Shown here one piece after another: positions 40,861 to 42,109 of a DNA stretch of 47,451 bases (the first letter of the stretch is position 1; every line of letters starts with the position of its first letter). The stretch covers positions 1 through 47,451 of the forward strand of contig CANQZW010000009.1 in assembly GCA_947628435.1 (NCBI GenBank), read 5' to 3'. The notes beneath the pieces were generated by a model. It was not told the DNA's origin. It was given only the letters and a program-made list of their open reading frames with translations, and searched no databases. The DNA comes from an uncultured Bacilli bacterium. Lineage in GTDB: Bacteria > Bacillota_I > Bacilli_A > RF39 > UBA660. Made by a program: the position numbers and the translations under genes.

Positions 40861-40937
40861 GGCGAGATAGCTCAGCTGGCTAGAGCGTTCGGTTCATACC
40901 CGAAAGGTCGAGGGTTCGATCCCCCCTCTCGCTACCA
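40861..40937 (+). tRNA. tRNA-Met(CAT), elongator type
   Basis: Full cloverleaf with CCA; anticodon arm TTCGG-TTCATAC-CCGAA; 1-72 G.U pair and no GGG/CCC anticodon stem, so not initiator. Confidence 0.95.
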
Positions 40938-40976
40938 GGTTGATAGGAAACTCGAAAAAATACGAGTAAAGATAGA

Positions 40977-41006
40977 AAACGTACTTGATAAAAGTGCGTT
41001 TTTATG
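40977..41006 (+). terminator. tRNA-Met terminator
   Basis: AAAACGTACTT-GATA-AAGTGCGTTTT + TTAT. Confidence 0.75.
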
Positions 41007-41013
41007 TTATTAT
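40985..41013 (+). promoter_or_regulatory. Candidate promoter of a plus-strand antitoxin-like RNA
   Basis: TTGATA-17 bp-TATTAT. Confidence 0.5.
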
Positions 41014-41019
41014 GAATAT

Positions 41020-41130
41020 GTCAAGGATGCCTTGCATAAAATAAAAAGGGAAGACTTAACTTTGCCGAGTTGAGTACTTGCCCTTAAGTGGTAAGCACTT
41101 AATCTATGCTAGATTGAGTGCTATTTCTTT
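41020..41130 (+). ncRNA. Candidate antisense (antitoxin-like) RNA, about 110 nt
   Basis: Promoter upstream; ends at AGCACTTAATCT-ATGCT-AGATTGAGTGCT followed by ATTTCTTT; overlaps the 3' end of the convergent small-peptide gene; ends inferred. Confidence 0.5.
41048..41083 (-). terminator. Terminator of the small-peptide mRNA
   Basis: Minus strand GGGcAAGuACUcAACU-CGGCA-AAGUUaAGU-CUUCCC followed by TTTTTATTTT. Confidence 0.55.
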
Positions 41131-41210
41131 ATACATAGAATCATTACAGAGACTATTAATAAAATGATAATTAGTATTAGAAATGAGATTAATAAATCTT
41201 TTTTCTTCAT
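41121..41210 (-). CDS. Small hydrophobic peptide, type I toxin-like (29 aa)
   Basis: MKKKDLLISFLILIIILLIVSVMILCIKK*; SD AAAGGAGG 9 nt upstream of ATG; one predicted TM helix with charged ends. Confidence 0.65.
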   Translation of the reverse strand: MKKKDLLISFLILIIILLIVSVMILCIKK

Positions 41211-41274
41211 AATATCAAGCCTCCTTTCTAAAAGAAAGTTGGCAAGCACTCAACAATTAAGTTTCCCTACAAAA

Positions 41275-41303
41275 ATTATACCAAACATTTGTTCTTAAAA
41301 CAA
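41275..41303 (-). promoter_or_regulatory. Promoter of the small-peptide gene
   Basis: Minus strand TTGTTT-17 bp-TATAAT. Confidence 0.65.
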
Positions 41304-41378
41304 TATGTTTTATAAAAATTTATGACAATTTAGAAAACACATTTGAATATTGTCAAAAACAATAAGAAGGTGATGATA

Positions 41379-42020
41379 TTGAAGATATTAAGAGATAATA
41401 TAAGTGATAGTGGATTTTATAATTATTATTTGATAGATGACAATAAAAAATTAGGAATAATATATTGTGATAACGATGATTTATATTTCACTCCTTTTGA
41501 TAGAAATCAGGAAACCAATTTTTTTATAACAAAAGAAAATATGGTTATTTATAATTTATTTGATGCATTATATAAATCATTTAAAAATGGAAATGTATTT
41601 AATGTAAGTGACTATGATTTGTCACAATGTAGTGATATTAATGAAAAAAGGAAATTATATACACGAGTTTTTGAAGCAAATAAAAACTTAAAAAATAGTG
41701 AATTATATAAAAAAGTTTTTAATAATGAAAAAATTATTTGGATTAGTGATGATAGTATTTCTTTTGACTATAAAAATGCTGATTCTATGACAATTAGTAA
41801 TGAAGGAGAATATTATAAATTAAGATTTACTTATTATGAAGACTCATATCCTCATTTAAGAAGTATTAGAATACGAAATGCTCGTAGTAGATATAAACCT
41901 TTCAATGCTCTTATGATGGATTTTTTCAATAACTTACAAAGATACGATCCGGACTATCATCAAATGCATATAGAAGAATATTTATACAGACAAGAAAAAC
42001 AAAAGAAATTAATAAAATAA
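41379..42020 (+). CDS. Hypothetical protein
   Basis: Long ORF; SD AAGGTG 6 nt upstream of TTG at 41379; no recognised family. Confidence 0.65.
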   Translation: MKILRDNISDSGFYNYYLIDDNKKLGIIYCDNDDLYFTPFDRNQETNFFITKENMVIYNLFDALYKSFKNGNVFNVSDYDLSQCSDINEKRKLYTRVFEANKNLKNSELYKKVFNNEKIIWISDDSISFDYKNADSMTISNEGEYYKLRFTYYEDSYPHLRSIRIRNARSRYKPFNALMMDFFNNLQRYDPDYHQMHIEEYLYRQEKQKKLIK

Positions 42021-42109
42021 GGTTGTCGCATTTCTTCCTTTAGGGTGACCAATTGATATGAACCTTGAGCTTTTATGATTTTTTTGTAAAAAGTTATGTT
42101 AAACTTTCA

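Follow-up and report, generated by a model that had tools for sequence, protein, structure and literature searches.

The window analyzed here is a 47,451-nucleotide (nt) stretch of DNA from an uncultured Bacilli bacterium (GenBank assembly GCA_947628435.1, contig CANQZW010000009.1). The locus of interest within it pairs a minus-strand open reading frame (ORF) for a short hydrophobic peptide with an overlapping antisense gene on the plus strand. By sequence, the locus is a member of an undescribed multi-copy family from metagenome-assembled genomes (MAGs) of uncultured Bacilli, which are gut bacteria. We consider it probable that this family is a new SOS-inducible type I toxin-antitoxin (TA) system, in which the full-length toxin mRNA is closed end to end beside a hairpin at the Shine-Dalgarno (SD) sequence, and a 3' antisense RNA competes with the leader of the mRNA. 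For this system, we infer transcription, toxicity, translational silencing, leader displacement, decay, and LexA binding.

A total of 139 distinct copies were gathered by means of an antisense anchor combined with an SD and a hydrophobic ORF; the leader was never used, and an earlier collection chosen by leader complementarity was set aside. The copies fall into five peptide subfamilies, i.e., KKDLLISF (that of the window), KKDFL, KTKTF, EKYL, and TKRE, all of which share the same architecture. The general anatomy of a type I TA system, namely a small hydrophobic ORF and an overlapping antisense gene, with transcription predicted for both, is found throughout the 139 copies. The genome of the window hosts further copies at C1, C23, and C13, as well as a partial match at C12 by the contig end. 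Matches were found in 74 of the 146 relatives searched, although the weakest may be due to chance. Within the same bacterial family, an exact marker for the antisense 5' region, which owing to its exactness undercounts copies, was present in 50 of 145 genomes; class-wide sampling located it in 16 of 54 genomes of the family versus 1 of 341 others, and it was absent from viral contigs. Hits that are named come from MAGs, for the most part of uncultured Bacilli; one 'Lapin' series accounts for many of them, and Candidatus Ventrenecus is included. The sole match in the class-wide sample outside the home family (G264:C32:11750-11777) might reflect either horizontal transfer or a binning error.

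The end-to-end helix of the predicted toxin mRNA

The toxin mRNA is predicted to begin with GGG at position 41267 of the minus strand, to which all coordinates in this section refer. Upstream lies the promoter TTGTTT-17-TATAAT (41303-41275), consisting of a weak -35 element (TTGTTT, 41298-41303) and a predicted -10 element (TATAAT, 41275-41280). The leader, which begins with GGGAAACUUAAUUGUUGAGUGCUUGCC (41267-41241), comprises two blocks, L1 (GGGAAACUUAAUU) and L2 (UUGAGUGCUUGCC), which make up the 5' arm of the helix according to both folding and comparative pair counts. It is followed by the SD sequence AGGAGG (41220-41225) and by the ORF of the candidate toxin, a 29-amino-acid (aa) peptide (MKKKDLLISFLILIIILLIVSVMILCIKK, 41121-41210) with a basic N terminus and a hydrophobic body, a plan common to all five subfamilies. 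The 3' untranslated region (UTR) terminates with GGCAAGUACUCAACUCGGCAAAGUUAAGUCUUCCC (41082-41048), in which folding, wobble, and pair counts delimit block T5 (GGCAAGUACUCAA, 41070-41082), the partner of L2, and block T3 (AGUUAAGUCUUCCC, 41048-41061), the partner of L1. Immediately 3' of T3 is a U-tract (UUUUUAUUUUA, 41037-41047), also found in the collected copies, where the mRNA is predicted to end.

A previous sequence-only reading of this DNA had proposed that the leader (41267-41241) pairs with the 3' UTR (41082-41048), and both its coordinates and its 13-bp helix (UUGAGUGCUUGCC:GGCAAGUACUCAA, with one G.U) proved correct, as did the outer pairing GGGAA/CUUAAUU : AGUUAAGU/CUUCCC. The 220-nt transcript (41267 to 41048) folds at -68.9 kcal/mol, compared with -39.4 ± 3.9 kcal/mol for 200 dinucleotide shuffles (z = -7.5), none of which was as good, and its minimum-energy structure includes the long-range helix. 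Across the 139 copies, cognate leader:3' UTR duplexes have mean energies of -30 to -35 kcal/mol, whereas leaders combined with the 3' UTRs of other subfamilies yield -11 to -21 kcal/mol and those combined with shuffled partners yield -9 to -14 kcal/mol. Folding predicts that 120 of 124 mRNAs are closed in this way, with a mean probability of >0.5 for pairing between leader and 3' UTR, and that the pairing is worth about 10-20 kcal/mol.

The pairing is found in all subfamilies even though the sequences that pair are wholly different among them: GGAACAUUUAAU and UUGGGUG-UUGCC are paired in C1, UUAGGUACUAUUC in C23, and GGAUACAUUUGA and AUCAGAUG in TKRE. The four paralogues of the window genome are largely insulated from one another, with cognate leader:3' UTR values of -32 to -36 and cross values of -11 to -27. 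When RNAalifold was given 29 divergent copies, picked for identity below about 80%, it recovered the long-range helix unprompted. In addition, 93.7% of cells in the pair count were paired, compared with 30-48% after sliding; double-sided changes were observed at 15 of 18 pairs (in 73 cells, as against 3-17 after sliding and 22 after shuffling), and the observed covariation score was not reached by any of 500 shuffles.

The wobbles carry information about the strand that is under selection. Scored without any wobble preference, and with related sequences taken into the counts, the leader:3' UTR mismatches in the mRNA sense comprise 199 G.U versus 44 A.C (4.5:1); counted by block, the ratio is 76:6 for L1:T3 and 125:16 for L2:T5. 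Since both G.U and U.G are present, the base composition of one arm does not by itself account for the bias. Such a bias would not be expected of a DNA repeat, and the G.U excess therefore argues that the helix is selected as RNA. Collectively, the covariation and the wobble asymmetry support the end-to-end pairing advanced previously, and it is very likely that this pairing is a real built-in lock, kept by matched mutations over about 140 gene copies.

These data also bear on a possibility raised by the sequence-only reading itself, i.e., that the inverted repeat is the terminal inverted repeat of a multicopy miniature inverted-repeat transposable element (MITE). More generally, the repeat might be a DNA feature, such as a MITE terminal repeat or a product of gene conversion, with no role as RNA. 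The family is indeed multi-copy, and the module looks mobile. However, homology passes through the promoters on both sides and thus beyond the repeat, the ends of the cassette that carries the module lie elsewhere (see below), and the G.U bias in the transcribed sense is a signature of RNA. A MITE origin is accordingly ruled out, and the broader DNA-feature explanation is largely refuted.

The antisense RNA and the SD hairpin

The plus strand encodes a predicted antisense (candidate antitoxin) RNA of ~110 nt (about 41019-41130), preceded by the promoter TTGATA-17-TATTAT with a TG-extended -10 element (40985-41013); a promoter-like pattern of this kind is present in 128 of the 139 copies. The RNA lies wholly at the 3' end of the toxin mRNA, its promoter and terminator flanking the 3' UTR, and it folds at -41.7 kcal/mol into a 5' hairpin (41022-41034), a T' hairpin (41048-41082), and a strong terminator hairpin H (41094-41122) that is complementary to the region just past the toxin stop codon. 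In the mRNA sense, the wobbles of the T and H hairpins run opposite to those of the leader:3' UTR helix, with 26 G.U versus 98 A.C in T (0.27 G.U per A.C) and 5 G.U versus 87 A.C in H (0.06 G.U per A.C). Because an A.C in the mRNA corresponds to a G.U in the antisense RNA, both hairpins are maintained in the latter. Counting unique contexts only gave the same direction throughout (G.U:A.C of 38:6 for L1:T3, 57:13 for L2:T5, 14:27 for T, and 4:17 for H). The evolutionary model that these sequences describe is one of an mRNA with its leader closed on the 3' UTR and an antisense RNA composed of the 5' hairpin, the T' hairpin, and the terminator.

It had also been suggested that the leader and the antisense RNA compete, and at the sequence level this is borne out: the antisense RNA is complementary to the 3' UTR, and the leader is of the same sense as the antisense RNA. 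Since the two share sequence, they would compete for one 3' UTR. What the present comparisons add to that picture is a family of several subfamilies, a LexA box, a tRNA-linked cassette, and 3' hairpins maintained in the antisense RNA.

The local hairpin described previously next to the SD (CUUUCU-UUU-AGAAAG, 41238-41224, minus strand) is present as well, and folding predicts that it is extended by GCC:GGC around the SD once the leader is free. Nearly every copy retains a hairpin adjoining or covering the SD (mean z = -2.9, with z < -1 in 135 of 139), the purest forms being the perfect UUACCUCC-GAAA-GGAGGUGA. For the window copy, formation of the long-range helix is predicted to lower SD accessibility from 0.31 to 0.03, a clear effect that is small in several subfamilies, and silencing of translation by end closure is likely on the basis of such folding predictions.

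The final bases of the leader (UUGCC, UUACC) belong both to the SD hairpin and to the long-range helix, which fits a scheme of the opposite sign. According to this scheme, the helix would activate translation, in that it would take up the anti-SD end of the leader and leave the SD free, and antisense binding would return the anti-SD to the SD in a BsrG/SR4-like refolding. We regard this as quite improbable, given that predicted SD accessibility with the helix is equal or lower in four of the five subfamilies and essentially unchanged in the fifth, TKRE (0.18 vs 0.15).

Candidate SOS control, proposed mechanism, and relation to known systems

Within the -35/-10 spacer of the toxin promoter lies a LexA/DinR (SOS) box, GAACAAATGTTTG (41282-41294, minus strand). 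Of 124 toxin promoters, 42 contain the strict box GAACN4GTTY, where 0.08 would be expected, and none of the antisense promoter regions does; among the 56 promoters with a relaxed box, 48 have it at exactly -26. Matching boxes are found in the window genome, two of them about 53 and 82 nt upstream of lexA (an ORF identified by its Pfam match) and one, CGAACAAACGTTTG, about 70 nt upstream of recA (an ORF identified by reading its sequence). The simplest reading of these motifs is that LexA represses the toxin promoter and that DNA damage would switch the gene on.

Two further observations concern these motifs. Twenty toxin promoters bear a GTTCG-type motif near -35, and GTTCGCTTGTTT recurs near -35 as an alternative in toxin promoters that have no LexA box, such as those of L031, L033, L062, and L079. 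Separately, a perfect LexA-type box (CGAACAAACGTTTG) is found at L232 (G000:C7, about 51280) beside helix-turn-helix-like and integrase-like ORFs, and this locus is possibly an SOS-controlled integrated element.

The system combines traits of several type I TA systems. BsrG/SR4, BsrE/SR5, and TxpA/RatA of Bacillus subtilis resemble it in their small membrane peptide, in an antisense RNA that is directed against the toxin mRNA at its 3' end, and in an SD held in a short helix. In B. subtilis, SR4, SR5, and RatA bind the 3' ends of the toxin mRNAs; the terminator loop of the antitoxin pairs with a toxin-mRNA hairpin, and the 3' part of helix P1 is the antitoxin target (PMC6562991, PMC7430163). 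The present system differs from these (with bsrG compared via reviews) in its shorter RNAs, its LexA box, a two-block helix that joins the extreme 5' and 3' ends, and multiple copies with private codes that reside in tRNA-linked cassettes rather than prophages. Moreover, 12 representative peptides gave no Pfam-A or NCBIfam match above the cut-off, and thus none to the TxpA/BsrG/BsrE or Fst families, and among Rfam covariance models only tRNA reached the gathering score, all other matches being sub-threshold.

The antisense RNAs of AapA/IsoA (Helicobacter) and hok/Sok target the 5' part or ribosome binding site (RBS) region of their mRNAs. Here, in contrast, it is the 3' UTR that is covered, hence the competition with the leader. 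What AapA/IsoA and hok/Sok do share with this family, judging from comparative and predicted data, is a 5'-3' helix that closes the full-length mRNA; that of AapA3 is inert through such a long-distance interaction, with transient hairpins sequestering the SD (PMC6733600). Like TisB/IstR-1 of E. coli, the candidate toxin is a hydrophobic peptide that would be controlled by SOS and LexA, in our case as judged by the LexA box, and restrained both by the structure of its mRNA and by an RNA antitoxin. IstR-1 itself comes from a divergently oriented gene and binds a ribosome standby site. Fst/RNAII (par of pAD1) is similar in its small membrane peptide, convergent small RNAs, and repeated short complementary segments. 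The repeats of Fst are direct, and its antitoxin pairs with them near the RBS; those described here are inverted, with leader and antitoxin sharing one sense. In its proposed workings, then, the system resembles TisB, AapA/hok, and BsrG/SR4 combined, and by sequence it is a member of none; given that no library matched either the peptide or the RNA, we file it as a type I TA variant rather than as a member of a known family. A literature search of titles and abstracts in a partial library turned up no Gram-positive type I system that combines SOS control with a 3' antisense RNA.

The mechanism that we propose would operate as follows. DNA damage would lift LexA repression and allow transcription of the toxin gene, during which the SD would be kept in its local hairpin. 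As the 3' end emerges, the leader would zip onto the 3' UTR, L2:T5 first and then L1:T3, up to the U-tract, and this end closure would yield a stable, poorly translated full-length mRNA. An antisense RNA that is made constitutively and complements the entire 3' UTR would begin pairing at its own hairpins (T' and the terminator H), displace the leader, and commit the mRNA to RNase III decay. Peptide would thus be made only if the mRNA outruns the antisense RNA or if the 3' arm is lost, and the leader and 3' UTR sequences particular to each copy would insulate the paralogues.

Three points weigh against this mechanism. A LexA box is missing from about half of the toxin promoters, with 68 of 124 lacking even the relaxed form. 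The analogy with AapA and hok is incomplete, as the antisense RNAs of those systems bind close to the 5' end rather than at the 3' end. Finally, most subfamilies have low predicted SD accessibility even without the long-range helix, and the helix may therefore serve stability or termination more than masking of the SD. The last point leads to the strongest rival explanation, in which the helix is chiefly a terminator and 3'-end shield: the leader would provide the 5' arm at the U-tract of a stable RNA, and translation would be controlled by the SD hairpin alone. That the helix stops directly before the conserved U-tract, and that the mismatches of the local T hairpin in the mRNA sense are A.C and not G.U, is in keeping with this proposal. 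The imperfect local T hairpin may nonetheless suffice for termination, and an effect on the SD is predicted for the window copy and its subfamily (0.15 vs 0.26-0.28); we consider the proposal unlikely.

A somewhat less likely alternative is that the peptide is not a toxin but an SOS-induced membrane regulator, held under antisense control and with no role in addiction. Its lack of matches to curated protein families would allow this, and non-toxin SOS genes are also under LexA control. Nevertheless, diverging multi-copy paralogues that are borne on cassettes, possess private antisense RNAs, and are silenced in layers follow the pattern of type I TA systems.

tRNA-linked cassettes and their significance

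The module resides next to a tRNA gene, in a cassette whose features are given here on the plus strand. The host gene is a tRNA-Met(CAT) (40861-40937, by tRNA model), the 3' end of which, together with a conserved trailer and terminator, forms a left end resembling an attachment (att) site, i.e., attL-like (40934-41003); the terminator includes the -35 element of the antisense promoter. Locus comparison assigns to the same cassette a cargo gene for a 225-aa protein (41343-42020), which has no Pfam match, and repeat comparison identifies a decayed, attR-like right end, ACCAATTGATATGAACCTTGAG (42048-42069). In a genus mate (L010), a window-type module and its 225-aa neighbor (94% identical over 40934-42045) are located at a tRNA-Thr instead of a tRNA-Met, and the right end of that cassette carries a further copy of the tRNA 3' end and trailer. 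The cassette of ~1.1 kb (TA module plus 225-aa gene) thus spans 40934-42069 in the window and 1451-2640 in L010, flanked by repeats of the tRNA 3' end and trailer; its right-end motif is TTGTCGTACTTCTTCCTTTAGGG, and different tRNAs are used in related species.

Proximity to tRNAs extends across the family. Among the 102 copies located on long loci, up to 46 have a tRNA or transfer-messenger RNA (tmRNA) no more than 250 nt away, typically at 105-119 nt, and in these adjacent copies, the antisense RNA always runs in the direction of the tRNA. Within a subset, 26 of 81 copies are within 200 nt of a tRNA or tmRNA, versus 4.7% of random positions. Candidate left and right repeats were found at eleven loci, about eight of them convincing, and mostly enclose 0.6-1.6 kb with approximately one cargo gene. 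This arrangement suggests that cassettes integrate at the 3' ends of tRNAs; no integrase was traced.

The conserved trailer CCANNTTGATAGGAAACTCGA and terminator also follow tRNAs that have no directly adjoining TA module, as at L006 (1-75, tRNA-Val) and L007 (1594-1613, tRNA-Ala), and the trailer could be either an att site or a tRNA-processing signal. In addition, arrays of several TKRE-type modules occur in single loci (L163, 4775-5809, with a 475-bp period; L187, 3824-6748).

With a leader and an antitoxin that share one sequence and one target, this family offers a clean system for the choice between self-closure of an mRNA and its capture by an antisense RNA. Through the wobble asymmetry, helices can be assigned to one or the other overlapping RNA with no need for experiment. 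The LexA box renders the trigger open to testing, and specificity can be compared across the sets of RNA pairs that the insulated paralogues provide. More tentatively, the SOS-inducible end-closing modules of this bacterial family may provide the addiction function for cassettes that lack an integrase and reside at tRNA 3' ends. Each cassette would evolve a private RNA code of leader, 3' UTR, and antisense RNA, in which the leader would act both as the 5' arm of the terminator and as a mimic of the antitoxin.
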